From positions 1-24,347 of the IMG/VR virus record IMGVR_UViG_3300041955_000237: DNA of 24,347 bases. One strand, given 5' to 3'. The DNA is from a virus. Below the pieces are notes generated by a model. It worked only from the letters and a program-made list of their open reading frames with translations. It did no database searches and had not been told where the DNA came from. Of this stretch, positions 1,899 to 23,122 are shown in pieces. The position numbers were made by a program, and so were the translations under genes. Every line of letters starts with the position of its first letter. Within the stretch, counting starts at the first letter, position 1.

Positions 1899-3353
1899 TT
1901 ATTCCCCGCCTAGGATGTGCCGCAGTATTTCCTTGCCGCCAATCACACCACCAGCAACACCACCAGCAACAGGGACAGCAATCTTTGCTACCTTTTTAGC
2001 CACATCGGCCAGGTTCCGAGCACGCTCGGCTTGATAAGAGAGTCTTGCTTGGATCTCATTGCCGAGGTGAGGGAACTTCTTTTCAAGTATGTCCTGAAGC
2101 TTGATGGCACGAGAGATCTCTTTATTGAGGATCTCTGACATAGGTTCAGCTTTGCTGACCAAGTCACGCAATGTAGAACGTGCTTTGAGATAGGCTTCTT
2201 GTCTCACCTTTTGGACTGTATCCAAAGTGTCAGGTGAGGCGAAGTTATGGATCTCATCATCGATTATGCGAATAAGGTTATTCACAGCAGCTGGGTGCGT
2301 TGGGTGGTCTCCTAGACCTGTATCCTCAACGATGCGGTCGTGGACATCGTGAATAGCCTCCACGAGCTTCTGCTTATTGCCGCTGACACCGTGTTCAATC
2401 CTTTGGGTTATGTCATAGAATGCACTGGTTAGGGCACTCTTGGCATCCACAACACTGCCTTCGGACTTCTGGAGGATCTCATCCAGTCCTTTATTCCACT
2501 CTTCAAGTTGTGCTTCCACGTCGGGCTTGATGAGCTTCAGTTCGTTCTCGATGGTGGAGAATGAGGCTTTCTTGTCGAAGAACTCCATTGCCTTCCCGAC
2601 AACATCCCCGTCAGCCTTGGGACCCAGGGCTTTCTTTATCTCATCCACTATGCCTGCTTCCTTGGTCAGCTTCGAAGGCAGGACGAGCTCTTTCAGTCGG
2701 GCAGCATCGCCAGGAATCTCGGCAAGCTTGCCTGGCACTTCCGGTGCCTTCTCAATCGTTCTGGCCAATGCAACATCAGCCGCTGTCTTGCCGAGAGGAG
2801 TTGCCAAGTCTCCACCCTTACGGCTGCCTTCTGCAAACTCAGCAATACGATTGCCTTCGCCTGGCGGAGTTACACCAACCAGCTCGTTGGAATGACCAAT
2901 CGCAGCACCTGTATCCGCCAAAGCATCACGGTACTTCCCTTCGTGGAAGTCGTGTATGGCAGCGAGCAGGCTATTAGCTGTCTCTCTGAACTCTTCTGGC
3001 TTGGCCTTGAAGGTGCTTTCAGCAGCCTCCACGACGTGCTTGGCAAGCCGATAGACAGGAAGTCCATCAGGACCCCCAACGATGTTGATGATGTGTTCCT
3101 TGGCGTCTTTAGGCTCTTCAGCAAAGGCGTGATATACTCCCTTTGCCATATCGACAAGAGGCTCTATGCCTTCCTGATAGACACCTGAAGCGAAGCGAGA
3201 CACAACTCCAGGACGTTCTGGAGTGACTACATCTCCATAGCCAGCAGGCGGTTGGACATTAGGTGCTGATTCAGCAGCTACTTCAGTAGCCGTGTTGGGC
3301 TGTACGATATCCCCATAGCCTGGAGGGGCTTGGATTTGAGGTGTGTTTCCCAT
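1899..3353 (-). CDS. probable internal virion (ejection) protein with tandem PPGYGD motifs
   Basis: This is a 484-residue protein of unknown family. The N-terminus carries two copies of a short motif, QAPPGYGDIVQP (residues 8-19) and QPPAGYGDVVTP (34-45). The middle is long, charged and mostly helical, rich in Lys, Glu, Asp and Ala. The last 30 or so residues contain a glycine-rich hydrophobic stretch (VAKIAVPVAGGVAGGVIGG) that could insert in a membrane. The ATG directly follows the TAA of the upstream 590-aa gene (TAAATG), so the two are translationally coupled. Its position after two other ejection-type genes, where T7 carries genes 15 and 16, suggests a protein delivered with the DNA. No transglycosylase motif is visible. 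Confidence 0.6.
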   Translation of the reverse strand: MGNTPQIQAPPGYGDIVQPNTATEVAAESAPNVQPPAGYGDVVTPERPGVVSRFASGVYQEGIEPLVDMAKGVYHAFAEEPKDAKEHIINIVGGPDGLPVYRLAKHVVEAAESTFKAKPEEFRETANSLLAAIHDFHEGKYRDALADTGAAIGHSNELVGVTPPGEGNRIAEFAEGSRKGGDLATPLGKTAADVALARTIEKAPEVPGKLAEIPGDAARLKELVLPSKLTKEAGIVDEIKKALGPKADGDVVGKAMEFFDKKASFSTIENELKLIKPDVEAQLEEWNKGLDEILQKSEGSVVDAKSALTSAFYDITQRIEHGVSGNKQKLVEAIHDVHDRIVEDTGLGDHPTHPAAVNNLIRIIDDEIHNFASPDTLDTVQKVRQEAYLKARSTLRDLVSKAEPMSEILNKEISRAIKLQDILEKKFPHLGNEIQARLSYQAERARNLADVAKKVAKIAVPVAGGVAGGVIGGKEILRHILGGE

Positions 3354-5126
3354 TTACTTCCCCTTGATTATATCGCCTGTCTCGTTGAACCAAGTAATAC
3401 CATCGTCAGACATAGCACTGCCATTTGGTCCGCCGGCAGTGTGATATTTGAAATCTGATTTGTTTGCGTGAAGCTTGGCAGCATCCCCTCGGGTTGCGGG
3501 ACCTTGTCCTGCTTGCCACTTACGATCGGCTTCCTCTTCTGCTGCCAAGGTGCTGGGCTGGCCATTGATGTCCATTACCTTCATCTTGCTGCGATCGGCC
3601 TTGGAGTCAGTAGGAATCTGCTGTTCAATGGCGGATATAGTCTTGTGGCGTGCCTCAACCTTGAGGATTCCGACCACCTTGGACATTGCGGCCGCAGTAT
3701 CCTTGTCGATCTTGCCCGTTCCACCTTTGACGAAGTATTCGATAGTTCTTTGTGCTACGCTGGCAGGCACTCCGGCTTCAACGAGCTGCTTGTTCAAGCG
3801 GGCAAGTCCTGCCTGGTTATTGATGCCCATAGCGAGCATCGTGGGAGCCAAGGAAGCAGACACATTCCCGACATCAGCACCTTCTCTGATGACAGACTGT
3901 GCGGCGTCAAGTTGGGTCAGGACGTTGTTGTAACTTCCCTTCCCTCCTGTCTTGGGATCTCCTGCGACGATAAGGTTCACGTTCTCATTCTGTTTCTTGG
4001 TCAAGCCTCCGCCTTCGCCGGCTTCGGCTCTTGCCTTCTCGGCTTCAGCTCTTGCTCTTTCAGCTTCGGCTCTCTGGAGGTCGTTCTTGATTAGAGAGTC
4101 TCGGAGATCCATACGCTGCTTGTTCTCGGCCGTGAGTTGCTTGTCCATATCCCCGACCGTCTGGCCGTGCATAGTTTGAGGATCCCCCTCCACGATCCTG
4201 TCTTGTCCCGTCTTGGGATCGGTTTCAACGTGGATGTTGGGGTGGATAGTGTAGTCGGGAGCGATGGAGTTGACGGTGGAGAGCTCATAAACATCCACTC
4301 CGCCATCGGGATTGGGAAGCAAACGAGCCTTCCCCACCATCACATCGTGAGCGATGTCTTTATTGTTGGTCAGGAAGCGTTGCATAGCTGCCTGGGTAGA
4401 TTCGCCCTGGTTGGCGTCAAAGTGAAGAGTGGGAGAGCCATAAGCGTCTCTGATCGTCTTCACGTTGGACATAATCGCTTCATCGGCATCTGACACGGAC
4501 TTGCGTGTATCTGCCTGGAGCTTGGTCAGAAGATAAGGCTCTTCCAACTTTGCGTGGGCGACTTCCTGTGCGATCTGGAGACTGCGGGCATTGTTCATCC
4601 CGATCTCTGCCATTGAACGGGCGTGCTCATCGGTAGCCTTGTTGGCTTCGATGCGGTTCTTGAACTGTTGCTGGGCGACTTCAGCACGCTTTGCTTCTGT
4701 CTCTTCCGTGACTTCACGCTCTGACTTCACGCCGGCACCGAAGGCTTCACCGAAACCCTGCCCTCTCTTGACTGATTCCAAGCCGTGGAGTGCTCCGCCA
4801 AGCATATTGGCCATAAGGGCACCGAAGTCTCCCTTGGTTGTGGGAGTGAAGGCTGGAGTGGCATTGATGAAGTTGCCTTGGGCATCTGTTCCAACTTGCG
4901 GGCCTTGACGGCCACGGGCAAAGCCCTGACCGAAGGTTTCCTTCGCAGGTTGTGGCGGATTAGGATTCACAGGACCCACAGGCTGACCTGGTATTGGCGG
5001 AGCCCCACCAAGAGTGGTAGCAAGGGTGTCAGCACCCAGATCGGGAGCTTCGCCAGCCGGAGGATTGTTCACCGGCACGACAGGAGCAGTGTTATTTGTC
5101 CAGCTTGGACCGAGTTGTGTATTCAT
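3354..5126 (-). CDS. probable internal virion protein with N-terminal GPSWTN tag and coiled coil
   Basis: This is a 590-residue protein. I chose ATG 5126 over the in-frame GTG at 5135 because GGTGA lies five bases before it and the upstream gene's TAA is one base away (TAAAATG). It begins MNTQLGPSWTN, the motif also found on the capsid protein and the 228-aa protein. Next comes a Pro/Asn/Gly-rich linker (to about 60), a Gly/Phe-rich segment, long charged helices (about 130-225), an Ala-Glu-Arg coiled coil made of repeats (about 350-370), and a C-terminal region with GSAMSDDGITWFNETG. It lacks enzyme motifs. Size, helical character and place between the 228-aa and 484-aa proteins suggest a T7 gp15-like ejection protein; I cannot assign a family. 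Confidence 0.6.
   Translation of the reverse strand: MNTQLGPSWTNNTAPVVPVNNPPAGEAPDLGADTLATTLGGAPPIPGQPVGPVNPNPPQPAKETFGQGFARGRQGPQVGTDAQGNFINATPAFTPTTKGDFGALMANMLGGALHGLESVKRGQGFGEAFGAGVKSEREVTEETEAKRAEVAQQQFKNRIEANKATDEHARSMAEIGMNNARSLQIAQEVAHAKLEEPYLLTKLQADTRKSVSDADEAIMSNVKTIRDAYGSPTLHFDANQGESTQAAMQRFLTNNKDIAHDVMVGKARLLPNPDGGVDVYELSTVNSIAPDYTIHPNIHVETDPKTGQDRIVEGDPQTMHGQTVGDMDKQLTAENKQRMDLRDSLIKNDLQRAEAERARAEAEKARAEAGEGGGLTKKQNENVNLIVAGDPKTGGKGSYNNVLTQLDAAQSVIREGADVGNVSASLAPTMLAMGINNQAGLARLNKQLVEAGVPASVAQRTIEYFVKGGTGKIDKDTAAAMSKVVGILKVEARHKTISAIEQQIPTDSKADRSKMKVMDINGQPSTLAAEEEADRKWQAGQGPATRGDAAKLHANKSDFKYHTAGGPNGSAMSDDGITWFNETGDIIKGK
4020..4073 (-). repeat. in-frame short repeat encoding an Ala-Glu-Arg coiled coil
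   Basis: About two and a half imperfect 21-base units encode RAEAERARAEAEKARAEA inside the 590-aa protein. The unit is seven codons, one coiled-coil heptad, so slippage would lengthen or shorten the rod without changing frame. Confidence 0.6.
5094..5111 (-). other. GPSWTN peptide tag, copy in the 590-aa protein
   Basis: Residues 6-11 of the protein, encoded GGT CCA AGC TGG ACA AAT. Compared with the other two copies, the Pro, Ser, Thr and Asn codons differ while the peptide is identical. Confidence 0.8.
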
Positions 5127-5127
5127 T

Positions 5128-5511
5128 TTATTCACCGAGGAAAAAGCCGAGGGGTGTGAGTTCGCTCACTTCTTCAAATCCCTTTATGTGTTTCAGGAAA
5201 CGGAGCACTGGCAAGCAAGGAGAAGTCCCAGCATAACCATAACAACCAATCAGATCCTTCAATGTGCTCTGGGGAGTCAACTTCGAGTTGGACTTGCCAG
5301 AGCATTTGATTTCTAGATCCATTACACCAGCATCCAAGCCAGAAGATACCGACTTGAAAACTCGATAGCCGTGCTCATCCTTCTCGTGTCGTACACTGAA
5401 GCACTTCAGGAGAAGAGGGTTCTTGATCTTGAAAGCCAGACTCAAGGGATCGTCAAATCCGCCATTCATTTTAGAGATTGCTAACGCCAACGCTATGATT
5501 CTGTCAGCCAT
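5128..5511 (-). CDS. small muramidase/transglycosylase-like virion protein, catalytic Glu not evident
   Basis: This is a 127-residue protein. Its pattern (AISKMNGGF near residue 12, a central KNP at 30-32, then HGYRVFKSVSSGLDA and a later TLKDLIGCYG) resembles small phage muramidases of the PRD1 P5/P7 type, whose core reads roughly AI..EG....NNPGNL....G...F.s...G..AL....L..li..Y. In those proteins a Glu in the EG position is catalytic; here the site reads KMNGG, so the enzyme may be inactive or the resemblance misleading. The start has AGGTG four to five bases upstream. It sits between two ejection-type proteins, consistent with a virion-associated peptidoglycan-opening role. A capsid-neck or unrelated structural protein is the alternative. 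Confidence 0.4.
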   Translation of the reverse strand: MADRIIALALAISKMNGGFDDPLSLAFKIKNPLLLKCFSVRHEKDEHGYRVFKSVSSGLDAGVMDLEIKCSGKSNSKLTPQSTLKDLIGCYGYAGTSPCLPVLRFLKHIKGFEEVSELTPLGFFLGE

Positions 5512-5521
5512 AAATCACCTT

Positions 5522-6208
5522 TTACCAACCGAAGTCGCCTGATCCAATATTCGAGACTACTGTCCCAAGTCCGCCAGTCAAACCACCTACGACGGATTGA
5601 GTGACTCCGCCCAGGATAGAGCCAAGGATGTTGGTGCGTTCGCTATCCACCTGCTGAATAGCAGAGGTAGCGTTCTTGCCGGCTCCTGTGGCAGCATTGG
5701 ATTCACCGATGGGATTGAGGATCTGTTGTTCCCCAGTGATGGCAGAAGATGCCTGCTCAAAGTTGGCTTGGCCTTGTTCAAAGCCAGCAACCTTTTCATT
5801 CTGGAGGGCCGTGGCTTCAGCCTGGCCGCCGAGCACATTCTGAATAGCAAGTAGTTGCTCTTCTGCTCCCGTGGGCAGGTTGGTCTTTCCGCCACCGGAT
5901 TGAGCGAGACCCAGCTCGGTCGCATTCGTAGCCGCAGCCGTAGCGTTGGCAGATGTGTTGATAATCTCACCACGCAGGGCAGCATCCTCGGCCGGAGAGA
6001 AGCCATACTGATTAGGACCAGCTTGGAAGATAGGACCCCAAGTAGCTATCAGTTCGTTATAAGCAGACTGCGACTCTGCATAGGTTTGACTTGCCTGTTG
6101 CGTCACTTCATTGAAATAAGTGGTCTGGGCAGCCTCGTTTGCTTCGGAAGCAGCAGATGGCCCGCCGTTAGTCCAGGAGGGACCGAGTTGTACGATGTTA
6201 TTTATCAT
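5522..6208 (-). CDS. probable internal virion protein B-like, with N-terminal GPSWTN tag
   Basis: This is a 228-residue protein rich in Ala, Gln, Asn, Gly and Ser. It begins MINNIVQLGPSWTNGG, sharing the tag with the major capsid and 590-aa proteins. The centre is amphipathic helix (EANEAAQTTYFNEVTQQASQTY; EQLLAIQNVLGGQAEATALQNE) and the C-terminus is Gly/Val-rich (GSILGGVTQSVVGGLTGGLG), able to associate with membrane. This composition and its place after the acetyltransferase-like gene match T7 gp14-type ejection proteins, so I infer it enters the cell envelope at injection. It overlaps the upstream gene by 11 bases; its ribosome site is weak (AGAAG), so coupling is likely. Confidence 0.55.
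   Translation of the reverse strand: MINNIVQLGPSWTNGGPSAASEANEAAQTTYFNEVTQQASQTYAESQSAYNELIATWGPIFQAGPNQYGFSPAEDAALRGEIINTSANATAAATNATELGLAQSGGGKTNLPTGAEEQLLAIQNVLGGQAEATALQNEKVAGFEQGQANFEQASSAITGEQQILNPIGESNAATGAGKNATSAIQQVDSERTNILGSILGGVTQSVVGGLTGGLGTVVSNIGSGDFGW
6167..6184 (-). other. GPSWTN peptide tag, copy in the 228-aa protein
   Basis: Residues 9-14, encoded GGT CCC TCC TGG ACT AAC. The preceding codons (CAA CTC) match those in the 590-aa protein, giving QLGPSWTN in both. Confidence 0.8.
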
Positions 6209-6662
6209 TGGGTTTCTTCTCTAGGTCATTCAGGTTCAATACGTAGACAGGACGATCAACCTTGCGGTAGTGTCCATTCAGTTCAGCGAACTCTCCCAGT
6301 CCGCCCTCTCCACCGATAAAGGCCATTTCCAGAGCTCCTGCTTCTCTCACCCTGTCTTCAAGGACGTGATGAAGGGCTACGAAGCATTCGGCAGCTACTC
6401 CGTTGGTCATCTCGGGATTGGGAGCGACGGAATCAAGGATGAGAGCCTCCCGCACAGGGAGGAACATCAAAGGACCAGTCTCATCGAAAGCCACGAAGAT
6501 CTTGGAGATCTTTATTAGCTCGGGATCAAAGTGATTGATCTCTCTGTTGTCATAGAGCCACTTGACAAAGAGGGGCTTTTCTTCTTCTCGCATCCTGCGA
6601 ACGTGAACTTGATGATGTGTGTGTGCCATATTATTTACGATGAGCTGCTGACATCGAACCAT
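6198..6662 (-). CDS. GNAT-like acetyltransferase fold protein, T7 gp13-like position
   Basis: This is a 154-residue protein. After VHVRRMREEEKPLFVKWLYDN come strand-helix elements typical of GNAT proteins (ISKIFVAFDETGPLMFLPVREALILDSVAPNP), a helix (ECFVALHHVLEDRVREAG) and a late ALEMAFIGGEGGLGEFAELNGHYRKVDRPVYVL, where acetyltransferases have their final strand. T7 gene 13 (an internal virion protein) and related podovirus proteins have this fold and lie at this position between tail and ejection genes. The acetyl-CoA-binding R/Q-x-x-G-x-G/A loop is not clear, so catalysis is uncertain. I used ATG 6662, which has AGGG five bases upstream; ATG 6629 (MAHTHH...) is an alternative without a ribosome site. 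Confidence 0.55.
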   Translation of the reverse strand: MVRCQQLIVNNMAHTHHQVHVRRMREEEKPLFVKWLYDNREINHFDPELIKISKIFVAFDETGPLMFLPVREALILDSVAPNPEMTNGVAAECFVALHHVLEDRVREAGALEMAFIGGEGGLGEFAELNGHYRKVDRPVYVLNLNDLEKKPNDK

Positions 6663-6686
6663 TTGTGCCCTGAAGCAACCATTGCG

Positions 6687-6902
6687 TTATTTTACGGGAT
6701 TTTTCTTCCGCCATTGCAGCTTTGCCTCGTGCAGCTTTTCCACACGGTCGCAGTGAGCCTTGAGCGAGGCGTCCAAGTCGGGGGCGTCCACAGCAGCCGT
6801 ATGCCACGAGTCTGTCATTGGCTCGCCGCAGCAACGAACGCGATAAGCTACTTGCGTGTCGTTGATTTCCTTGATTTCGACTATTTCTGTTGTGTGTGCC
6901 AT
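6687..6902 (-). CDS. small hypothetical protein between fibre and acetyltransferase-like genes
   Basis: This is a 71-residue protein, unrecognised. Residues 1-20 look like beta strands (TTEIVEIKEINDTQVAYRVRCCGEP) with an adjacent Cys pair; the rest is a charged helix ending LQWRKKNPVK. AAGGA lies five bases before ATG, a good ribosome site. Its first four codons (ATGGCACACACA) are identical in DNA to those at an internal ATG of the next gene. It is co-directional with the virion block, with 11 bases to the fibre stop-side gap at 6902-6914 and 24 bases to the following gene. Confidence 0.6.
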   Translation of the reverse strand: MAHTTEIVEIKEINDTQVAYRVRCCGEPMTDSWHTAAVDAPDLDASLKAHCDRVEKLHEAKLQWRKKNPVK

Positions 6903-6913
6903 AGATGTCCTTA

Positions 6914-9778
6914 TTAACCTATCTTGACGTTATGGGCTGTGTGCCCGTTCTCAAGAATGTAGTGCTGGTCTTCTGGGTTGTCGGAGCGGACGTGAAGGTT
7001 ATAGAGTTTGCCAGCATACTCGCGCGCATCAGTGAAGAGTTCACTTGCTGGAACCCAAAGATCGCCCTGCTTCATCAAATGGTTGCCGGTCACGAACTCA
7101 AAGCCGCCCATGTCAAACATCTTGCAGACCACATCATCGTGGACAATCAGGTCTGCGGTATGAGTGCCTGTGACGTTCAGGATTTCTACCACGGCTGGGA
7201 GTTCATCAAATCTCTTCCAGCCTTCGGTTGTTTGGATCCGCGTGTTGCCAGAGAAACAGAAGTGAGGTCCACCGCCACCACCGCCACCGCTTCCACCACC
7301 TCCACCGGCTGTTGTGATAGCACCAATGGAAATGTAGGAGTCGTTGGAAGTTGTGTTGTATCCAACTGCTGTATAGAGGAATGAGACAGTCCCACCAGTA
7401 TAGGTAGGATCGCTGAAATAGATGACGTATGTTCCATAAGACCCGGGATTACAGGAGCCGCTGTTGTAGCTCACTGTTCCGAATCCATACTGGATGGTGA
7501 AAGCCGCCACATTGATGGTTGTGCTCGTCCCGCTCTGGCTCAGGATTGCTCCGGATGCCGTGTTCGAGCCAGTGTTGCACAGCGGGTTCATCGTGTGGGA
7601 GTCAACCACTTTGAGGACGCGAATAGCGTCAAACTCATGCGTCCCGCCACTTGCTCCGAATGAATAACATTCAACAACGCCTACCGTCGCGCCTGAGCCA
7701 ACGACGCCTTGGGCAGTCAAATAAGACCAGCTCGAAGAGGTACTGGATATACCTGCGTAACCGTCTGTATTTTCCGTGCCGCGCGCCGGCAGGAACCGCA
7801 GCAATGCATAAGCTGCGTTCGTCCCATCGGACTTGATGGCACCACTGATCTGATAGATCTCTCCGGGAGTAACGGGGAACGACTGGATCGAAGTAACGCC
7901 AGCAGCTTGCGCTGTTGCGACTATCTTCAACGACTGCGAACCAGAGTATTGCGTCGTGGTGTCGTAGGAGAGCGTGCAGCTCGATCCTATGTAGGCGTCG
8001 CCGCCAAGCTGCCAGCCCGGAGGCGGCAAGACCGTAGAGCTTGCCTCAAAATCGGAGTTCGTCACCATCACGGGGCTGCCCGAGTTGATCGGGTCCATCA
8101 CATACACCGAGCCGTTTATGATCGCATCGGCTGAAGTAGGCCCAGCGCAAACCCAGTGCGAGGTTCCAGCGGGAGCGGGCGTCTGCCCGGTTCCCCCCAA
8201 CTGGCAAACATAGTAATTTCCGCCGTAGGAAACTTCGTTTCCCTGAACATAGGCTGTCCCCGCATTGTATGCGCCCTTGTAGACATACGGGACTCCGCTG
8301 CTCAAGCTGCTAAGCGTTACTTTCCCGTAGGTGACGCCATCGGCGATGGAGTCAATGTTCTCGGGGCCGACAAGCTGCCAGTATGTTCCGTTTGGCGGGG
8401 CGTTGCCTGTCGTGGCAGCGATACAGGAATAGACGTTGCCGTCTGTGCCGACCGCTTCCATCCCGATTGTATAAGCGATGCCCGCACTGTAGGCTGCCAG
8501 AGCGATGGCTGATGTGCCTGTATTGAGCCAGTAAGAAGAGCCAGGAGCAGGCGTGTTTCCCGCTGGCACAGAAGAAATAGCAACCCAGAAGGAGCCATTC
8601 TGCGTCACCATTGAGCCGGCCGAATAGACCTGGGAGCTGTTGTAGGCTCCGATGAAGTTCACAGTGGCAGTCAGAAGTTGCCAATAGCCTGTGGTAGAAG
8701 TCGGGTTCTCGTTGGTGCTGGCCGCTATGGCAATGTAAAGAGCACCGCTGACAGAGACAGTCTGACCGATTTGATAAGTTAGAGTGCCTGACCAAACTCC
8801 CACATAGGATGCGTTGTTTATAGGCATCCAGTAGGTTGCGTTCGGCGGGGTCTCATTCGTGTTGCCGGCGATACAAAGATAGATGGTGCCCGAGAGCGAG
8901 ACTTCAGCTCCTGCGGTGTAAGCTACCGTGGAACTCCAAGGTCCCGAGAAGCCAAAAACTATGCTCTGGACTACTCCACTCTGTGCTGATGTGGCTGCAC
9001 TTTCGTTCCCGTAGACATCCACGGAGGTCACGAAATAGTAGTAGGTCAGCGAGCCTTGATTGACGGCATCCTGGAAGACATAGCTGCCCAAAGCTGTCAG
9101 GTCTTGAGGGACGGTGCGGATCTTCGTGGAGCCGGCGAACGTGTTGGCGGAAGTGTTCCGATAGACGTTATAGCCAGTGATGATTGTGCCTACAACGCCA
9201 GATAGATAATCAAAGGTGAACTGATAGCCGCCAGAATATGCCGTCAGAGAGCCTGAAACAGTGGGAGCCGGAGGAGCAGAAGAGACGCCATTCAGCACGA
9301 TCGCTGTGGCTGGTGCTCCACTAAAAGGAGCCGAGATGCCAGTAGCATTGAAAGCTACGGCTGTGACGGTGACGGTTTCCCCTGTGGTGTCGGCAAGGAA
9401 AGAAACTGGTGATGTCTGGCCGCTGGCCACAAGCACCGGATTAGCGTTGCCGTGATATCCGGATAGCCAAATATCAGCCCCAACTCCCGAGGGATGAGAG
9501 AAGGTGACCGAGACCAAGATATACATCACGTTATTGGTCTTGTAGGGCTCCTGGGTGACAACCAGGCCAGAAAGCTGCCCAGGAACACTCGTAGATGTGC
9601 TGGTGGGCGTAGAAACAGAAGATGAAGCCGCAATCCCGGGCTTGCCAACCTCTATCGGGGTAATGATAGGCAGAGGTTGAGCTCCGGTACGCTTAACACC
9701 AATGAGGGTGTTATCTACCGTGTCTGCCTGGTAGGCAATGTCTGCTGGAAATGTTCCACGATTAGGAAGAGCTGTCAT
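6914..9778 (-). CDS. large modular tail fibre/adhesin with CBM5/12-like repeats and C-terminal Hint domain
   Basis: This is a 954-residue protein, probably the receptor-binding tail protein. Order: a short N-terminal segment likely anchoring to the tail (1-45); Ser/Thr linker (50-66); FN3-like domain (about 70-165); second FN3-like domain (about 168-270); five tandem repeats resembling CBM5/12 chitin-binding modules (about 279-546), each with an aromatic start, a Y..G..V centre and an ending YW; a jelly-roll carbohydrate-binding-like domain (about 570-727); a beta-rich stretch; a glycine linker (825-837); then a Hint domain (841-950). Its ATG overlaps the TAA of the nozzle gene by one base. 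I infer that it binds surface glycans and may be processed by the Hint domain. The lack of a recognisable trimerisation or chaperone domain other than Hint is unusual. Confidence 0.8.
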   Translation of the reverse strand: MTALPNRGTFPADIAYQADTVDNTLIGVKRTGAQPLPIITPIEVGKPGIAASSSVSTPTSTSTSVPGQLSGLVVTQEPYKTNNVMYILVSVTFSHPSGVGADIWLSGYHGNANPVLVASGQTSPVSFLADTTGETVTVTAVAFNATGISAPFSGAPATAIVLNGVSSAPPAPTVSGSLTAYSGGYQFTFDYLSGVVGTIITGYNVYRNTSANTFAGSTKIRTVPQDLTALGSYVFQDAVNQGSLTYYYFVTSVDVYGNESAATSAQSGVVQSIVFGFSGPWSSTVAYTAGAEVSLSGTIYLCIAGNTNETPPNATYWMPINNASYVGVWSGTLTYQIGQTVSVSGALYIAIAASTNENPTSTTGYWQLLTATVNFIGAYNSSQVYSAGSMVTQNGSFWVAISSVPAGNTPAPGSSYWLNTGTSAIALAAYSAGIAYTIGMEAVGTDGNVYSCIAATTGNAPPNGTYWQLVGPENIDSIADGVTYGKVTLSSLSSGVPYVYKGAYNAGTAYVQGNEVSYGGNYYVCQLGGTGQTPAPAGTSHWVCAGPTSADAIINGSVYVMDPINSGSPVMVTNSDFEASSTVLPPPGWQLGGDAYIGSSCTLSYDTTTQYSGSQSLKIVATAQAAGVTSIQSFPVTPGEIYQISGAIKSDGTNAAYALLRFLPARGTENTDGYAGISSTSSSWSYLTAQGVVGSGATVGVVECYSFGASGGTHEFDAIRVLKVVDSHTMNPLCNTGSNTASGAILSQSGTSTTINVAAFTIQYGFGTVSYNSGSCNPGSYGTYVIYFSDPTYTGGTVSFLYTAVGYNTTSNDSYISIGAITTAGGGGGSGGGGGGGPHFCFSGNTRIQTTEGWKRFDELPAVVEILNVTGTHTADLIVHDDVVCKMFDMGGFEFVTGNHLMKQGDLWVPASELFTDAREYAGKLYNLHVRSDNPEDQHYILENGHTAHNVKIG
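6929..7258 (-). other. Hint (intein-like) autoprocessing domain
   Basis: Residues 841-950 of the fibre. Block A begins at Cys841 (CFSGNTRIQTTEGWKRFDEL); block B has T897-G-N-H900, the TxxH signature; the end has LYNLHV ... HYILENG ... AHN, with the penultimate His949 and Asn950. Only four residues (VKIG) follow, and the +1 residue is Val, not Ser, Thr or Cys. At 110 residues it has no endonuclease insert. This is the pattern of cleaving (bacterial intein-like) rather than splicing domains. Confidence 0.85.
7268..7306 (-). repeat. GGN-codon tract encoding the glycine linker before Hint
   Basis: Thirteen codons encode twelve glycines and one serine (GGGGGSGGGGGGG). On the plus strand the tract is a run of CCACC/GCC triplets. 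Slippage in units of three would change linker length but not frame. Confidence 0.8.
8141..8944 (-). repeat. five tandem CBM5/12-like modules in the fibre
   Basis: Modules start at about residues 279 (GPWSSTVAYTAG), 326 (GVWSGTLTYQIG), 377 (GAYNSSQVYSAG), 427 (AAYSAGIAYTIG) and 502 (GAYNAGTAYVQG). Each continues with a V..G..Y/W.....N/G.PP/AP pattern and ends YW or HW. CBM5/12 domains bind chitin and related glycans through such aromatics. Confidence 0.75.
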
Positions 9779-12348
9779 TACTGTTCCTCATTGTCAACCT
9801 TCCCACGGATGGTGAAGGAGAGGACTTCATCCTTTGTATTGGCGGCCGCCCCGCTCAAAAGGATCTGCATAAAGCTGCAAAGAGGAGCCTTGCCTTGGGC
9901 TACTTCATAACGATAAGAGTTCAAGGTAGTAGAAGCTGCCAGCTGTGGAGGCTCGTTGAGGTAATTTGTGAGAGTCGTGAAGGAGCCAGAGATTTCATTC
10001 AGCAATACGCCAACAGTGGGTATTCCGCCAGCCGCATAGCTCTGGACAGAGACACTATCCACATTGGCCAGTGTGCCGGCCGAAGACAGCAGCAAGCAGC
10101 CAATCTGGGCACTCCAAGTGTAAGATGTGACGTTATCCACGAAAGAGGTCAGGCTGCGAGCGAGCACAGGACCTGTGACAGTTCCGCCCACGAGAAGTTG
10201 ATGAACCCCGTAGGAAGTCTCCACAGAAGCGATTGCTCCACATCCGCCAACGATTGTGGCGAACGGAGACCAAACAGGAGTGGCTACTCCATCCGAAGAG
10301 TTAGCACCTACTTGGTTCGGATTGCCGCGATACCATCCGGTAGAGCCATCACCGAGCAGGATACAGTTATCTTGTGAGCCGGAGACGTGACGAACGACTT
10401 GTGCCTTGGTCGGGTCAACATTCAGTTCAAACGAGTCTCCCACAGGGAAACCAATCTCGAATGTGCCGGAGGAAGGAGCCATCACCAGGAACTGGCGATC
10501 GGCCGTATAGAGGTACATATTGGAGCCATCGAGATCCAGGGCTTTGTAGTTGCGTAGTCCGAGGTTGGCGAACAGAGGAGCTGGGAAGAAGGATGCTAGA
10601 GTGGTTCCTGTCACTGCCCAGCAGCCGCCCGTCATAAAGACCACCAAGCAGTTCTGCTGTGGCACGATGCGAGTAATAGGCATTGGCAAAGGCAGGACGT
10701 TCGATGGCGACCAACATTCAGCACTTACACCATTGAAGGTGATGTTCACGAGCGAAGCGTTGTCTGCTCCAGTGCTGAAATAGAGGTCTTGACCGACAAA
10801 ACCCCAATAGCGACCAGCCCAGAACTCGATCCCCTTCATTCCTGTCGGGGGCGGGTTGTTCAGCTGCACTATTGGGGCGTAGATTTCCGTGTTAAGTGAG
10901 GTATCCTGAAGCACGTCTACATAAGAAGCCGTGCCAGAAGGCGGATTAGAAACTGTGGCCAGGCGGTAGTAATAAGGTCCGCCGTCTGTGTTGCGATAGA
11001 AATCGATCAGATCCACAGAAGGATTTGGGGAATAATCAGCTGTAAGAGTTGCTGATTGCCCCACAAGAACGCCACTGTTCGCCGAGATTGGTGAAGCAGA
11101 GGAAGAGTTAGATGTCAGGGAAGAACGATAGGCGTAGTACCAAGTATAGCCATTCAGCGGGTTCAGTCCGTTGGGTCCGCCATTTGTCCAAGTGACGTGA
11201 TTATCGGTTGTTGTGGTGCCTTGGATAACCGCCCATTTCGGGGCTGTAGCTCCGCTCTTATCATCGCCAGTGACACCAGTTACGGTCTGGAGGTTTCCAT
11301 TGCTGTCCGTGATCGTGTTTGTGAGCGTGTAAGCGTGAGAAGCCTGCCAAGCGTTGCCGTAGGCAGAGAAAAAAAGCGTGGGAGCTGTGACAGGAGCCAC
11401 AATCCCGATCGGATACAAGCCTTGTGGAAGGTTTGTGGTTGCTTGATAGTTTGTTGCTGTGCCCCCGGGTTCCAACTGGGCATCCCAGACAACATAGTTG
11501 CCTGTCGCTGACGGAGTATTGACGCTGAAAGTCAGCGATGTGGAACCAGCACCCGAGGATGCGGTGACGGAATAACGAGCCCAAGCAGCAGAGAGTGTAA
11601 CGGTCTTGTCTTGTAGGACGCCCGATTGGTCGCTGATTGTCAGGTGGATGGTCGGAGTTCCTGACGGAGCATTGATGTAGATTGAGCCAGTGAAAGTAGT
11701 GCTGGCAACCGGGCTATAAGGAGGTGTCTGGGTCTGCGTGAAGTAGCCACTCGTGTTGGAGAAGGCTGCCTGTGAAGCAGTCAGAGTGCCGCTTGGGTCT
11801 GTCTGGCCGACTGTGAAGACGACGTTGGATTTCACCCAAATAGCATTCGTGAATGTGTCCGAATAAGTGAGAAGGTTCGGACCTACGAACTTCATCGCAT
11901 CCACACCATCGTACATATAGAGTGTGTCATTCAGGGTGGCGAAGTTCGTTAGTCCAGAGCCAGCACTCTTCTTCATCAGGATGCCGGCGGAAGTCGGGGT
12001 GTAGAGATAGACAGCCGAAGCTGTATCTACAACGAGCTGAAGGGAGGGCGGTGTGTCTTGCTCCCAAGCATAGAAATCGAGAGGTGCGGGGATGCTTGCC
12101 GTGCTCCACGCCGGGTTGCCCGGGCGACGTTGAAGCGTCAACTTGTTCGAGATCTCGCAGTTGCTCCCCGCAAGCAGCGTATCCGTCTTGTTGCCAAGAA
12201 AGCGTTTGCTGTAGCGGGAGTCAATGGAGATGAACGGAGAACGTTGAGTCGCAAGTCCACCAATGAACTGACCTGTATAGATAGGAGTATACTTCGACTC
12301 CTTCTCCGGTCGTCCACCAGCAGATTCGAGGATGGCAGCATCAGGCAT
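9778..12348 (-). CDS. nozzle-like tail protein with inserted lectin modules
   Basis: This is an 856-residue protein. The N-terminal part (about 25-78: GQFIGGLATQRSPF ... LLAGSNCEISNKLTLQRRPGN) has the pattern seen at the start of T7 gp12/P22 gp10-type tail nozzle proteins, and the C-terminal half is beta-rich with propeller-like repeats. Between them lie a carbohydrate-binding jelly-roll module (about 157-303, NLLTYSDTFTNAIW ... WDAQLEPGGTATNY) and a smaller W-x-A-S module (about 333-394). The coding start overlaps the adaptor stop (TAATG), with GGAGG six bases before ATG. Role inferred: lower tail tube that closes the DNA channel, here decorated with glycan-binding domains. It is well above the usual nozzle size because of the inserts. 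Confidence 0.65.
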   Translation of the reverse strand: MPDAAILESAGGRPEKESKYTPIYTGQFIGGLATQRSPFISIDSRYSKRFLGNKTDTLLAGSNCEISNKLTLQRRPGNPAWSTASIPAPLDFYAWEQDTPPSLQLVVDTASAVYLYTPTSAGILMKKSAGSGLTNFATLNDTLYMYDGVDAMKFVGPNLLTYSDTFTNAIWVKSNVVFTVGQTDPSGTLTASQAAFSNTSGYFTQTQTPPYSPVASTTFTGSIYINAPSGTPTIHLTISDQSGVLQDKTVTLSAAWARYSVTASSGAGSTSLTFSVNTPSATGNYVVWDAQLEPGGTATNYQATTNLPQGLYPIGIVAPVTAPTLFFSAYGNAWQASHAYTLTNTITDSNGNLQTVTGVTGDDKSGATAPKWAVIQGTTTTDNHVTWTNGGPNGLNPLNGYTWYYAYRSSLTSNSSSASPISANSGVLVGQSATLTADYSPNPSVDLIDFYRNTDGGPYYYRLATVSNPPSGTASYVDVLQDTSLNTEIYAPIVQLNNPPPTGMKGIEFWAGRYWGFVGQDLYFSTGADNASLVNITFNGVSAECWSPSNVLPLPMPITRIVPQQNCLVVFMTGGCWAVTGTTLASFFPAPLFANLGLRNYKALDLDGSNMYLYTADRQFLVMAPSSGTFEIGFPVGDSFELNVDPTKAQVVRHVSGSQDNCILLGDGSTGWYRGNPNQVGANSSDGVATPVWSPFATIVGGCGAIASVETSYGVHQLLVGGTVTGPVLARSLTSFVDNVTSYTWSAQIGCLLLSSAGTLANVDSVSVQSYAAGGIPTVGVLLNEISGSFTTLTNYLNEPPQLAASTTLNSYRYEVAQGKAPLCSFMQILLSGAAANTKDEVLSFTIRGKVDNEEQ

Positions 12349-13328
12349 TAGTGACCTCCGCTATACCACCAGCAACCACCAGAAGCGGGTTGAGGACCGT
12401 CACTCTGGATTGCTTCTGCGGGTGCGAAACCAAACTCTTGCTCTTCTCTGTCCGAGGAGCCGGCCGCACGCTTGATAGCGGCTTGGAACTCTAGGAACTG
12501 TTGTGTGAAGTCTGCCTTTCCTGCGTGCTTCGTCAGGTAGGTCAAGAAGCCCTTGCGGATGAGCCAGCTGAACTCATCTGGGATTGGGGCGAATGTCTGT
12601 GCCAGTCCAGTAATAGACGGCATCTTTTGCTGATAATCGACACGGATTTGATAGACCGTGCTGCTGTTGGTGGCCATAGCATCCAGACGGAAAGTAACCC
12701 CGTTTGGATCCACGACCGTCCAAGTGACGCTGCCATCGGTAAAAGTAGCCCCTGCCACCGCATTTGCGGCCGCACTAGGAGCAGTCAGTCCCGAAGTCCC
12801 ATAACCAGTAACGACCCAGATGTTCCCATTGACATCCGTGTAGGAGCACACAGGGTTGGTTCCAGGTCCGCCACCATTGGCGACCAGCGGATCTTGATAC
12901 AGAGTGCTTGCTTGCCAGGTTCCAGTCTGTGCCAGACGATTAGGAATGAAGCAGATCTTGTGGGGAACGTCGCAGATAGAAGTTGGCATCAACATCTTGA
13001 CGCAGCGAAGCGGAGCCGAAGGCATAGGCTTCGATGTGTTATTGATGTCCCAAACCGTGGCATATTCCAGCCAGCCGACAGAGTTGAAGGACAAGGAAGT
13101 CGGATAGTCCTGCTGGTAGGGCTGAAGATTGAAAGGAGTGATGGAATAGCTGTTCCATTTCCACGGGACGCCTTCCGCCATAATCTCTTGTGCCAAGTCG
13201 TTGGCAATCTGAAGCGAAGGTGTCGTTTCATACCCGACAAGGCCCAGTGTTTCAACTGTCCAAGGATAAGCACGAGCCCAGTCGATAAGGAGTTGCGGAG
13301 TGAGTGTACTTGTAACTGTATTAGCCAT
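12348..13328 (-). CDS. tail adaptor protein (paralogue 2, with inserted module)
   Basis: This is a 326-residue protein resembling portal-to-tail adaptors (T7 gp11/P22 gp4 role). Helical N-terminal part (ANDLAQEIMAEGVPWKWNSYSIT), beta region, and a C-terminal helical part after FAPIPDEFSWLIRKGFLTYLTKH. The C-terminal 90 residues align with the next upstream gene product (FRxMA ... TYQKAAPLMSALTSTWAPIPDKYAYLYERIFLAH), so the two are paralogues. Unlike that paralogue it carries an insert at about 137-210 ending VTWTVVDPNG, also found in the nozzle protein. It ends with an odd Trp/Gly tail (GGCWWYSGGH). The ATG overlaps the previous TAA by one base, with GGGAGG just before. Confidence 0.65.
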   Translation of the reverse strand: MANTVTSTLTPQLLIDWARAYPWTVETLGLVGYETTPSLQIANDLAQEIMAEGVPWKWNSYSITPFNLQPYQQDYPTSLSFNSVGWLEYATVWDINNTSKPMPSAPLRCVKMLMPTSICDVPHKICFIPNRLAQTGTWQASTLYQDPLVANGGGPGTNPVCSYTDVNGNIWVVTGYGTSGLTAPSAAANAVAGATFTDGSVTWTVVDPNGVTFRLDAMATNSSTVYQIRVDYQQKMPSITGLAQTFAPIPDEFSWLIRKGFLTYLTKHAGKADFTQQFLEFQAAIKRAAGSSDREEQEFGFAPAEAIQSDGPQPASGGCWWYSGGH

Positions 13329-14020
13329 TAGACCCTCCCACCGACCTTCTGACTCTGGCGGGCGTTACGCAGGAACTGCTCTAGGAAGATGTTCTTGGCT
13401 GCGTCATCCAGACCTGTCTGGAGAGCCATAGCCTGACGCAATCCAAGTTCAAGCTCCTGAAGATATTTGTTGTAATCGAATGTGGCGTACATATGAGCCA
13501 GGAAGATACGCTCATAGAGATAGGCGTACTTGTCTGGGATAGGTGCCCAAGTGCTCGTTAGAGCAGACATAAGCGGAGCTGCCTTCTGGTAGGTCACTAT
13601 TGCGGTATAGACCACATCAGGCAGAGCCATAAAGCGGAAGGTAATGTTCCCAGAGTTGTCATCTACCTGGACGGCTACCTTGGATGGGCGGGCAGCTTGT
13701 GTGCTCTGACCAAGAACGGGAGCAATGTCCAGCTCATAGGCCTTTCCATTCGGGTCGGTGATGACGCACTTTTCGATGTATCCCCAATCAGAGACTGCCT
13801 TTGTGTAGTCTGTGTGGGTGATGTCCATCGTGATGCTGACCGTGTTTCTGTTCCACGGCCAGACGAAGGGAGCACCAAGCAGGAGTTGATAGGTTAGATT
13901 AGCACTGGTGAGTGCCGGCTCGTTCGTGGCCCCATTCCAGTTGGAAAGGACACGGCCGAGACAGAAAGCCGAACACCAAGACAGAGTGTTATTGATTGTT
14001 AGGGTGCTGTTTGATGCCAT
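13328..14020 (-). CDS. tail adaptor protein (paralogue 1)
   Basis: This is a 230-residue protein, first gene of the four-gene tail cluster. Its N-terminal NLTYQLLLGAPFVWPWNRN and C-terminal APIPDKYAYLYERIFLAHMYATFDYNKYLQEL parallel the following gene product. Proteins of this size and plan form a dodecameric ring beneath the portal. Two related adaptors in tandem could form successive rings, or one may have a new role; the sequence does not decide. GGAG lies seven bases before ATG and sits in a hairpin arm (14028-14043). The gene lies just past a terminator, so it may have reduced or separately controlled expression. Confidence 0.65.
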   Translation of the reverse strand: MASNSTLTINNTLSWCSAFCLGRVLSNWNGATNEPALTSANLTYQLLLGAPFVWPWNRNTVSITMDITHTDYTKAVSDWGYIEKCVITDPNGKAYELDIAPVLGQSTQAARPSKVAVQVDDNSGNITFRFMALPDVVYTAIVTYQKAAPLMSALTSTWAPIPDKYAYLYERIFLAHMYATFDYNKYLQELELGLRQAMALQTGLDDAAKNIFLEQFLRNARQSQKVGGRV

Positions 14021-14027
14021 TTATCTA

Positions 14028-14043
14028 CTCCTGGTACTAGGAG
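14028..14043 (-). promoter_or_regulatory. hairpin covering the adaptor ribosome-binding site
   Basis: In the minus-strand RNA, CUCCUAGUACCAGGAG forms a 5-bp stem (CUCCU/AGGAG) with a 6-base loop. The right arm is the Shine-Dalgarno of the 230-aa adaptor gene, so the structure could limit initiation or mark an RNase cleavage site. Confidence 0.4.
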
Positions 14044-14068
14044 GCTAAGAGCCCAAAATGGTGTTTAT

Positions 14069-14105
14069 AACCCCTTATGTTTCAGTAACATTAGAGGGGG
14101 TTTTT
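14069..14105. terminator. hairpin terminator between capsid-side and tail gene clusters
   Basis: AACCCC (14069-14074) pairs with GGGGTT (14097-14102), and an inner ATGTT/AACAT stem is capped by TCAGT. TTTTTAT follows on the plus strand; on the minus strand the tail is only TTATAAA, so termination of the virion transcript would be partial. T7 has a leaky terminator in the comparable place after its capsid gene. Confidence 0.5.
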
Positions 14106-14121
14106 ATCACGCCTGGGATGC

Positions 14122-14559
14122 TTATCCTTGGGGGTTGCGAGCATGGACGCCAGCACGAGCCATACGGCGGACTGCCTTGGGATCGGCACGGAGCAAAGCC
14201 AAATCCTCGGGCTTGCGTGCGTCAAACTGCGACAAGCATTCGCCACAAACTCCCATAATGATGCCGTTGGAATGTTCGTGCCACGAGATGTTCAGGGTGT
14301 TGTCATAAGGACGGCGGTGAGGGCAGTTCTTCTTCAACCACTCCTTCTTACGCTGGTCCTTTTCCATCAAGGCACGCAGTTCAGCACGATCCTTTGCTTT
14401 CTGTGCTTCTACTGCTGGGTCCTTGTAAGGCTTGCGGCTTTCGAGGATGGCTTCCGCCAACTTCAAAATAGCCTCGGCTTGGGCATTGTTCCCAGCCTTG
14501 ACTTCCGCAATCACCTTCTGCACATCTGTCTGTTCTACTGCTGGTTTTTCATTACTCAT
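14122..14559 (-). CDS. small protein with Cys/His zinc-type cluster
   Basis: This is a 145-residue protein. The N-terminal 75 residues are charged helix, probably coiled coil (VQKVIAEVKAGNNAQAEAILKLAEAILESRK; KAKDRAELRALMEKDQRKKEW). Then C79-P-H81, H94-E-H96 and C105-x2-C108 form a probable zinc site, followed by a basic tail (RRMARAGVHARNP). I do not recognise the family. A structural or assembly role is inferred only from its position between capsid-side and tail genes. GGAGAGG lies just before ATG. Confidence 0.55.
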   Translation of the reverse strand: MSNEKPAVEQTDVQKVIAEVKAGNNAQAEAILKLAEAILESRKPYKDPAVEAQKAKDRAELRALMEKDQRKKEWLKKNCPHRRPYDNTLNISWHEHSNGIIMGVCGECLSQFDARKPEDLALLRADPKAVRRMARAGVHARNPQG

Positions 14560-14593
14560 TGTCCTCTCCTACCAATCCAGATATTCTGGAGGA

Positions 14594-15250
14594 TTACTGC
14601 AAGTTGTTTCTATAAGCGTGGAGTTGAGCACGATAGTTAGTCGCTGTCTCGTATCCTCCGCTTGGGTCGCCGAACTCATTCAATACTTCTTCTTCTGTCA
14701 GCACAGGGCGTCCTGTGTCTTCGTCAGGGGAAATCTGGAGGCGGAGAAGAATGGTTCTATATCCTCTTCTCTGTCCGCAAGGTTCTCCGAACTCATTGAC
14801 AAGGTTAATCTCGTACTCGGGCATATAGCCCATTTCTATCCAGCCGACGAACTTCACATAGTTGTGGCTGTCGTCGCCTGCCAGCTTGTTCATCACTCGG
14901 TAGAGTGAGAGGCGGTCAAGTTGCTCGGCATCGGTAACAATCAAGGAAGGGACTAGCTTCCGAAGCCGGCTAATAAACTCTGAATGGTGCATCACTTTGC
15001 CCATTCGTCTTTTGGTATCAAGGAAGATCTCCCATCCATCTGGGATGTGGGAGTCTCTGACCCTATCTAGCTGACTTTGTCGCCACTCGATGTTCTCCTT
15101 GTAAGGCATCAGTGGGGCTATTTTGAGAGGGTCGGTCTCATCAGGGAAGTTATCGTCACCGATGAGCTTATTTATCTGTTCGGTCTGCTCGAAGAGCTTG
15201 ATCTCTTCTGGGGTATATTTGGAACCTTTTACTATGAGGTCGATGGGCAT
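14594..15250 (-). CDS. hypothetical protein downstream of the capsid gene
   Basis: This is a 218-residue soluble protein, not recognised. It is acidic and helical at the N-terminus (YTPEEIKLFEQTEQINKL), has a basic central part (DTKRRMGKVMHHSEFISRLRKL), then strand-rich sequence (NYVKFVGWIEMGYMPEYEINLVNEFG) and a C-terminal helix. No catalytic motif stands out. GGAG lies three bases before ATG. Phages commonly carry a head-completion or decoration protein here, but the sequence does not show that. Confidence 0.55.
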   Translation of the reverse strand: MPIDLIVKGSKYTPEEIKLFEQTEQINKLIGDDNFPDETDPLKIAPLMPYKENIEWRQSQLDRVRDSHIPDGWEIFLDTKRRMGKVMHHSEFISRLRKLVPSLIVTDAEQLDRLSLYRVMNKLAGDDSHNYVKFVGWIEMGYMPEYEINLVNEFGEPCGQRRGYRTILLRLQISPDEDTGRPVLTEEEVLNEFGDPSGGYETATNYRAQLHAYRNNLQ

Positions 15251-15261
15251 TGTCTCCTTTC

Positions 15262-15310
15262 TCCCAACAGAAAGTCGGGTGGAGTGGATGGTTGGGCACC
15301 CACTCCTCCC
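15262..15310 (-). terminator. hairpin after the major capsid gene
   Basis: On the minus strand GGGAGGAGTGG (15310-15300) pairs with CCACTCCACCC (15287-15277) over 11 positions with one A-A mismatch and a 12-base loop, followed by GACTTTCTGTT. It separates the capsid gene from downstream genes and may keep capsid mRNA levels high. Confidence 0.55.
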
Positions 15311-15366
15311 ACTTAATCGCTTTTAAGGATTTAACGATCGAACCTGAAGGTACTTCTAGGTAGCGG

Positions 15367-16425
15367 TTAAGCTACGGCTGTTTCGCTCTTGATGCGACGG
15401 AACGGCATAGTCGTTCCAGGACGGGGCGTGGCCACAAACTTGAAGTTATAGGACACGGCTCCGGCGATTTCGCCACCAGGATCGAAAGCACTCGGTTCAA
15501 ACTGGTAGATAGAAGCGTGGAAGTTATTCTGGTCAGGAACATCTTCGAAGCCACCCAATCCGATACTGAAGATTGTGTCTTCAGCAGAGATATAGGTGCA
15601 CCACGAGGACTTGCCTGTAGTTGGAGAGTTGCTCAGCAACGGGACGTTAGTCGTCGTTACGAAGTCAACACCGGCAACAGGAATAACCTTGTTGGCACGT
15701 ACCAACCCGGCTTCAATCCACTCTTGACCTTCACGGGTGTGCTTCTCAACATCGAGAACGCCATTATTTGTAATGTCGTTCGCAACGTCGGATAGAACAT
15801 ACGGGTGGATTAGACCACGCATATTCCCACCCTCGAAAGGTAGACCGTTCTTGCCACGGATAGTGGCAACGGCAACGTTGATGACTGCACGGGTCATATA
15901 GTTCCCGTCAGCCACCTGTTGGTCGCACGTACCATCAGTTACGATGGCTGCGTCAAAGGACTGTTGAATAAGCGTGTCCACAACGAGGCGGCCACGATAT
16001 CCAAGCAGCTCGGACAACATTTCGAGCGGTTTCCCAATATCAACCGCTTCGGCGAAGTCGGAAATGTTGGTGTAGTCTACGTACTGACCAAGCACAGCAG
16101 TGATGCTAGCTTCAGTCGGCGTGATAGGTGTTCCAACAGTTCCTTCTGATGCCGTACTTGGAGCTGTGTCAGCTGCGTTAGCAACGACACCGCTTGTATA
16201 CGGGCCGAGGTTAGGTGTATAGATCTGAGTCGTGCGGCCGGACTTCATTGGGATCTGGCGTTCAGATGTGAGATCCTGAAAACCAAGATGGGCAAAGAGA
16301 GCACGGACGGCGAGACGGTCATAATACACTGCCTGGGTTGAAGGTAGAGATGAACCGATGACGTATGAAGCAGAGCTATTGCTGTAGTTGGTCCAGGAAG
16401 GACCGAACGCAGTATAGTTATTCAT
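15367..16425 (-). CDS. major capsid protein, N4gp56 family
   Basis: This is a 352-residue HK97-fold coat protein. The stretch RQIPMKSGRTTQIYTPNLGPY, then PITPTEASITAVLGQYVDYTNISDFAE and IGKPLEMLSELLGYRGRLVVDTL are typical of the N4gp56 family of major capsid proteins. It begins MNNYTAFGPSWTNYSN, with the tag shared by two other proteins. AGGTGA lies four to five bases before ATG, and a strong stem-loop lies in the short leader behind the scaffold gene. Scaffold gene upstream and hairpin terminator downstream fit high expression. The phage head is assembled from this subunit. Confidence 0.9.
   Translation of the reverse strand: MNNYTAFGPSWTNYSNSSASYVIGSSLPSTQAVYYDRLAVRALFAHLGFQDLTSERQIPMKSGRTTQIYTPNLGPYTSGVVANAADTAPSTASEGTVGTPITPTEASITAVLGQYVDYTNISDFAEAVDIGKPLEMLSELLGYRGRLVVDTLIQQSFDAAIVTDGTCDQQVADGNYMTRAVINVAVATIRGKNGLPFEGGNMRGLIHPYVLSDVANDITNNGVLDVEKHTREGQEWIEAGLVRANKVIPVAGVDFVTTTNVPLLSNSPTTGKSSWCTYISAEDTIFSIGLGGFEDVPDQNNFHASIYQFEPSAFDPGGEIAGAVSYNFKFVATPRPGTTMPFRRIKSETAVA
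16387..16404 (-). other. GPSWTN peptide tag, copy in the major capsid protein
   Basis: Residues 8-13, encoded GGT CCT TCC TGG ACC AAC, preceded by Phe instead of Leu. Confidence 0.8.
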
Positions 16426-16447
16426 ATATCACCTGTCTTGCGGAGAT

Positions 16448-16466
16448 ACGAGAGTGAAACTCTCGT
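16448..16466 (-). promoter_or_regulatory. stem-loop between scaffold and capsid genes
   Basis: ACGAGAGT (16448-16455) and ACTCTCGT (16459-16466) form a perfect 8-bp stem with a 3-base loop, starting on the base after the scaffold TAA. No U-run follows on the minus strand, so it is more likely a processing or mRNA-stabilising element for the capsid message than a terminator. Confidence 0.55.
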
Positions 16467-17474: not shown

Positions 17475-17503
17475 ACTATTCTCCCCATTAAATCAATCCG
17501 GAT

Positions 17504-17908
17504 TTATTCCGAAGAGTTGCCAACTTCTTTCTGTTCGTGTCGTTTGATCCAGTTACAGTTGGCACAGAGCAACTGGTACAAACCTAAAACATCGTTCAAG
17601 ACCTTCAAGTAATAAGCACGGCGGGATAGTTTCTTTAGCTCTTGCTTGCCGCCACCATTGATGTGATCCACTTGTAAGCAACGCTCATCAGTGCAGCCAC
17701 GAGTTCCATCAGCATTCAGCCACTGACAAGCGGGATTAGAACACTTTCCACCGAGCTTCTTCAGGACAAGAACCCTCAAATCTTTAGCAGATTGGTTATG
17801 TCGAGTTACATCTCTTTTGTGATATGCCCTGACACGAGGCAGTCCTAGACTTAGACGACGAGCCTCTCGCCAACTACGCTGATATTCCGGAGATGAGTGG
17901 GAAGCCAT
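17504..17908 (-). CDS. HNH endonuclease, free-standing
   Basis: This is a 134-residue protein with a basic N-terminus (SWREARRLSLGLPRVRAYHKR) and a clear HNH core: C56-x4-C61, LQVDHINGGG with D81-H82, and YQLLCANCNWIK with C115-x2-C118-N119. HNH enzymes of this type cut DNA at long sites and often spread as homing endonucleases between phage genes. It lies between the scaffold gene and the 102-aa gene. No good ribosome site precedes the ATG (CCTTTCAGAATG), suggesting weak or coupled expression. It is intact, unlike the HNH next to the portal gene. Confidence 0.85.
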   Translation of the reverse strand: MASHSSPEYQRSWREARRLSLGLPRVRAYHKRDVTRHNQSAKDLRVLVLKKLGGKCSNPACQWLNADGTRGCTDERCLQVDHINGGGKQELKKLSRRAYYLKVLNDVLGLYQLLCANCNWIKRHEQKEVGNSSE

Positions 17909-17920
17909 TCTGAAAGGGGT

Positions 17921-18229: not shown

Positions 18230-18237
18230 TCGTCACC

Positions 18238-20734: not shown

Positions 20735-20748
20735 TTCCTTTCCTTGGT

Positions 20749-22595: not shown

Positions 22596-22600
22596 AACTA

Positions 22601-22801: not shown

Positions 22802-22802
22802 G

Positions 22803-23105: not shown

Positions 23106-23122
23106 TTGACTTACTCCTGTTG

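Follow-up and report, generated by a model that had tools for sequence, protein, structure and literature searches.

An N-terminal hexapeptide common to the major capsid protein and to two probable ejection proteins of an uncultured soil phage

The 24,347-base virus record IMGVR_UViG_3300041955_000237 (hereafter the window), which holds the incomplete genome of an uncultured soil phage, encodes three unrelated proteins that carry the same hexapeptide, GPSWTN, close to their N-termini. It occupies residues 8-13 of the major capsid protein (MCP; positions 16387-16404, minus strand, GGTCCTTCCTGGACCAAC), residues 9-14 of the 228-residue protein g228 (6167-6184, minus strand, GGTCCCTCCTGGACTAAC) and residues 6-11 of the 590-residue protein g590 (5094-5111, minus strand, GGTCCAAGCTGGACAAAT), the last counted from an ATG at 5126 that comes after the stop of the upstream gene. 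These sites and residues, together with the codons used in each copy, had been reported in a first-pass annotation of the sequence and were confirmed as stated. The triple occurrence is real, beyond chance and unusual. It may tentatively be read, with slightly less than even confidence, as a lineage-specific assembly address that brings the coat protein and both probable ejection proteins to a single docking partner, the scaffolding protein being the most plausible candidate.

A check of all frames revealed exactly three copies of GPSWTN in the window, every one of them N-terminal, and no fourth copy in any frame. When 21 N-termini were shuffled 20,000 times, a hexamer common to three proteins never arose (0/20,000), and one common to two proteins arose in 294 of the 20,000 trials. 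Among 27,339 pairs of open reading frames (ORFs) from related loci, no other set of unrelated virion proteins with a common hexamer this near the start was seen; the remaining shared N-terminal hexamers, sorted by eye, seem to stem from neighbouring homologues, signal peptides, frames read wrongly or isolated coincidences. The three copies are not equally distant from one another. Only 1.1 kb separates the genes of g228 and g590, which have in common eight residues, QLGPSWTN, as well as 12 identical nucleotides (ACAACTCGGTCC), with the MCP alone more than 10 kb away. The first-pass annotation, which had placed all three genes more than 10 kb apart, was thus right for the MCP and wrong for this pair, to which its remark that the remaining N-termini differ does not fully apply either. 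Scans of viral contigs in IMG/VR for tagged N-termini (ATGA with GPSWTN, and a nucleotide consensus) returned, within the limits of these patterns, a single true match, contig L001, the other matches being read as chance frames. This contig is 100% identical over 9,872 bp to positions 14476-24347 of the window and represents the same phage; as it spans only that part, independent replication is limited to the MCP tag. No mention of GPSWTN was found in the papers searched.

The window corresponds to the packaging and structural region of a podovirus-like phage, with all structural genes on the minus strand in the order terminase, portal, probable scaffold, MCP, tail genes, tail fibre, g228, g127, g590 and g484. 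The MCP (352 residues; 15367-16425, minus strand) matches PHROG 1357, major head protein (E 4.6e-8), and its AlphaFold2 model has the HK97 fold with residues 1-32 predicted to be disordered, the Foldseek matches being the capsids of cyanophage Pan3, N4 and GP4 (E ~1e-11 to 1e-9). Since the mean pLDDT of the model is 67, only the fold class was used, and together with the family match it identifies an HK97-fold major capsid protein. The protein g228 (5522-6208, minus strand), predicted to be mostly helical, is probably a small ejection (internal virion) protein, as judged from gene order; its homologue in the Tunturiibacter phage Tunturi_3 is gp23. By gene order, g590 (3354-5126, minus strand) is probably an ejection or internal virion protein as well, and it has a homologue in contig G002. 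The earlier description of both as ejection proteins is consistent with gene order and helical architecture but finds no match of family, fold or sequence: for g228 the searches returned none, including to ejection proteins of the T7 gp14-16 and P22 gp7/16/20 types, with an empty fold search, and g590 has no Pfam or PHROGs match.

More than 150 related loci, collected by using the MCP and the tail proteins as queries, provide a view of the tag's history. Sister MCPs, which are 82-97% identical among themselves and 71-74% to that of the window, start M-[AP]-SNS.ASFVIG, corresponding to the window MCP from residue 15, directly after the tag; a group at 45% identity starts MSLAASAVTN or MALTATAISN, where the tag is likewise absent. 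The MCP tag and its preceding residues form a leader of 12-13 residues without counterpart in the relatives. Close homologues of g228 in contigs G009 and G013 begin M-GGPSAESKANE, the window protein reading MINNIVQLGPSWTN-GGPSAASEANE, and the homologue in G002 has a longer N-terminal segment that ends ...DGPVLLFGGPSAES. The residues INNIVQL of the window g228 may be a remnant of such a longer form, because the Tunturi_3 member reads ...DGIVAQCCGASS. For g590, the homologue in G002 (L255:15252) starts MPDPIVQPNNP and is untagged, compared with MNTQLGPSWTN-NTAPVVPVNNP in the window. Homology to the relatives therefore starts after the tag in the MCP, in g590 and, when compared with the short-form relatives, in g228.

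GPSWTN is absent from the MCP, g228 and g590 homologues of these relatives, and is thus not a conserved assembly motif of the phage group; the first-pass annotation had itself named such an absence as evidence against its proposal, and a conserved signal is left unsupported for all three proteins. A comparison of the MCP, g228, g590 and g484 homologues within six relatives gave no common tag beyond chance matches of three to four residues, and a search of cellular genomes found no useful relatives. The nearest cultured relative, Tunturi_3 (PP885686), a podovirus of Acidobacteriota (PMC11924767), is collinear with the window and encodes homologues of two of the tagged proteins, the MCP and g228, g590 being matched by position, with only ~23-35% identity in the proteins compared; unlike the window, its genome contains the GPSWTN pattern nowhere. 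The simplest reading of these alignments would be that three unrelated genes each acquired an N-terminal leader of ~10-13 residues on a single branch, which is preferred because loss across all relatives would have required many events. As far as sequence comparison can tell, the tag is a lineage-specific gain and no general requirement of this capsid.

Two further features of these homologues were observed. The N-terminus of the g228 family resembles a swappable module, present as a short M-C-GGPS form, as a segment of ~38 residues (MRITT..YIWSDRQ.RYIL....WTG.VALCKG, hairpin-like) or, in the window, as the GPSWTN leader (homologues in L311, L312, L316, L318, L319, L326, L327, L331 and L089); the hairpin-like N-terminus was found on no other protein in those relatives. 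In several close relatives (L265, L183-L187, L262-L264 and L257) the MCP gene matches in separate pieces, which in L265 lie at 8163-8762, 9432-9734, 10403-10498 and 10720-10800, and in some the g856 gene does so too; these fragmented matches look like intron, intein or endonuclease insertions.

The nucleotide sequences of the three copies suggest that the peptide was retained as such. Of 15 comparisons of synonymous codons among the tags, 5 agree, where the codon use of the phage predicts 4.57 (P 0.47), and codon agreement at chance level under an identical peptide makes selection on the peptide likelier than a recent DNA copy. All three tags share one reading frame, and the serine has been kept across a switch between TCC and AGC. 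On this sequence evidence, the peptide rather than the RNA is favoured as the selected feature.

In the docking interpretation, one phage lineage would have extended its coat protein and two probable ejection proteins with a short linear motif at their N-termini. It would lie inside the procapsid and bind one partner, most plausibly the probable scaffolding protein (335 residues; 16467-17474, minus strand), which is assigned by composition and by its position directly before the MCP, matches no database family and has a C-terminal LRKMPMKDLKRI conserved across tagged and untagged phages. The ejection proteins would use the dock of the coat protein and would hence co-assemble with the scaffold; contact with the portal, or between the tags themselves, would be a less probable version of this scheme. 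Support comes from the three in-frame gains near a start codon, from the identical peptide with randomised codons and from the predicted disorder of the MCP N-terminus. The suggestion of the first-pass annotation that the motif is a shared signal for incorporation or docking survives as the best guess, though not as a conserved signal, since the relatives are untagged.

Several observations weigh against a dock. The relatives encode the same proteins without the tag, which is thus not generally needed. The window scaffold, aligned with those of untagged relatives, has no extra domain, so that no dedicated receptor is visible. The proteins g228 and g590 are no more than probable virion proteins, and the phage is known from one 24-kb fragment, with only the MCP tag recurring in a second contig. 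A receptor in the form of an additional scaffold domain was rejected on the same alignment, as was g102 as a partner confined to this lineage, positional counterparts of g102 being present in the relatives.

Known phage systems provide partial parallels. Short N-terminal packaging signals have been described for the internal proteins of T4 (PMC9958956) and for DarB of P1 (PMC9024508). In T4, the capsid-targeting sequence comprises ~10 N-terminal residues common to the unrelated internal head proteins IPII and IPIII and acts as a packaging address; GPSWTN, too, stands within ~15 residues of the start of unrelated proteins, two of which are presumed to be internal. The T4 sequence is reported to be conserved in IPII and IPIII but in no other core proteins (PMC9958956), whereas the window phage has its tag on the coat as well, and among the scanned proteins of its incomplete genome no prohead protease, the enzyme that removes T4-type targeting sequences, was recognised. 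As the tag lacks both this restriction to cargo and the acidic residue of AXE sites (discussed below), it may be classed by analogy as acting like a capsid-targeting sequence, but not as a member. The DarB signal is similarly short, N-terminal and located on a capsid-delivered protein; unlike the window tag it occurs on a single protein, without consensus with other Dar proteins (PMC9024508), and not on the coat. A likeness to a common dock is found in P22, where a hook of the scaffold touches the N-arm of the coat protein and the scaffold column has been proposed as the dock for co-assembling ejection proteins (PMC12005531). By analogy, such an arrangement could accommodate one peptide carried by the coat and by probable ejection proteins, although the hook contact is electrostatic and GPSWTN is uncharged. 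No report was found of a peptide common to coat and ejection proteins in P22.

The relatives have N-terminal motifs of their own. In many related loci, a motif that is particular to each phage opens the largest protein downstream of g228, where it stands in 2-4 near-identical copies; examples are DPFAAFGG, LPPGFVVQ, VDLSSIWG, GDIFDQAA, YKSPEELGL and PPGMTGTPI. The window counterpart is g484 (1899-3353, minus strand), the next gene downstream of g590, which is free of GPSWTN and carries two N-terminal copies, PPGYGDIV and PAGYGDVV; g484 homologues with a repeated start motif include those at L267:7201-, L326:12962, L319:12691, L314:11385, L325:13076 and L116:16959. Self-repeats were detected in 4.7% of long-ORF N-termini and 0.4% of internal stretches, a ratio that is approximate as the samples were de-duplicated differently. 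The repeated motifs are almost always restricted to one protein, an exception being G002, with a related PPxGFxP[VL] motif on two consecutive proteins, and a motif common to the coat and other proteins occurs only in the window. The general picture supported by these data is that probable internal proteins of this phage group carry N-terminal motifs that change fast. An extension of the docking interpretation, which we consider doubtful, is that GPSWTN forms part of a private address code, in which cargo and shell would either share a single site on the scaffold or compete for it, and the relatives would use their other fast-changing motifs, single or repeated, in the same manner.

An unlikely alternative is that recombination carried a leader aiding translation initiation from gene to gene, its spread being neutral or related to expression and the peptide having no binding role. 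The proximity of g228 and g590 and their identical nucleotides would agree with this, and N-terminal copying has a precedent in the clade, as the first 12 residues of a g856 homologue in L209 recur at the start of an unrelated neighbouring ORF (L209:18520 and L209:19010; MSQIAANGGQPQ). Codon identity at the random level, however, implies copies old enough for synonymous randomisation that have nonetheless retained all six residues, and by eye the sequences upstream of the three genes look unrelated.

It is also quite improbable that a phage prohead protease cuts at or just after GPSWTN, removing a leader of 11-14 residues and leaving mature N-termini like those of the untagged relatives. The sequences after the tag are similar to the starts of the relatives (YSNSSAS against PSNSQAS in the MCP, GGPSAAS against GGPSAES in g228). 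A short motif recurring on the coat and on internal proteins is also what prohead protease sites typically look like, an example being the AXE motif of SPN3US, which a number of head proteins carry, the portal and ejection proteins among them (PMC10052503). AXE sites, however, end in Glu and mostly release long propeptides, and GPSWTN has no acidic P1 residue, with none in the leaders before it either. No protease was detected with Pfam and PHROGs among the scanned window proteins, most of which are unassigned in this incomplete genome, and processing would require gain of the site in all three genes, although their relatives need no cut there.

There is a similarly slim chance that the selected element is a nucleic acid. 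Gly is encoded by GGT and the wobble base of Ser is C in all three tags, and an inverted repeat, GTCC-N5-GGAC (a 4-bp hairpin), is thereby kept 14-23 nt past each start codon, where it could be a translational operator or protein-binding site with the peptide as a by-product. The only three such sites in the window coincide with the tags; GGT, which accounts for 25% of Gly codons, would be expected in all three in ~1.6% of cases; and the local stem appears in the minimum-energy folds of all three, the hairpin thus co-varying with the tag, a further point against a peptide dock. The first-pass annotation, whose preference for the peptide is favoured by the constant frame, the Ser switch and the chance-level codon matches, had dismissed RNA too fast. 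Nonetheless, the remaining stem bases are set by the G-P-x-W-T codons, and a common frame would arise in 1 of 9 cases if frame were irrelevant. Ser was retained through a two-base change in the loop (TC to AG), and Asn, which lies beyond the stem, was retained too. Total folding is ordinary (z -0.50, 0.23 and 0.33), the repeat was not seen near the corresponding starts in the relatives checked, and an Rfam search gave no match.

Least likely is binding to a partner outside assembly (for instance a chaperone or, during ejection, an envelope protein of the host, or else a particle decoration factor), for which nothing specific speaks beyond the report that T4 propeptides recruit chaperonins besides targeting proteins (PMC10052503), and of which an extracellular or ejection role would, without an exposed N-arm, be hard to square with a tag on both the coat and internal proteins.

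Other genes of the window include an SU10-type portal protein (18238-20301, minus strand; Pfam PF23899, E 2.6e-21), the terminase large subunit (20749-22434, minus strand; PHROG 38, E 9.7e-47) and the tail fibre g954 (6914-9778, minus strand), which has a carbohydrate-binding module (CBM_5_12, E 6e-15) and whose C-terminal stretch from CFSGNTRIQTTEGW resembles, by eye, a Hint/intein-type domain. ORFs resembling HNH endonucleases by eye, with zinc-binding Cys and His motifs, lie at 274-1176 (plus strand), 17504-17908 (minus strand) and 20522-20734 (minus strand).

The recruitment of ejection proteins into podovirus procapsids is poorly understood. A hexapeptide evidently gained in parallel on the coat and on probable cargo, with tagless close relatives serving as natural controls, would make the question directly testable, and the repeated phage-specific motifs of those relatives suggest that such addresses change quickly. 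If the docking interpretation is true, GPSWTN might be usable as a small loading tag.

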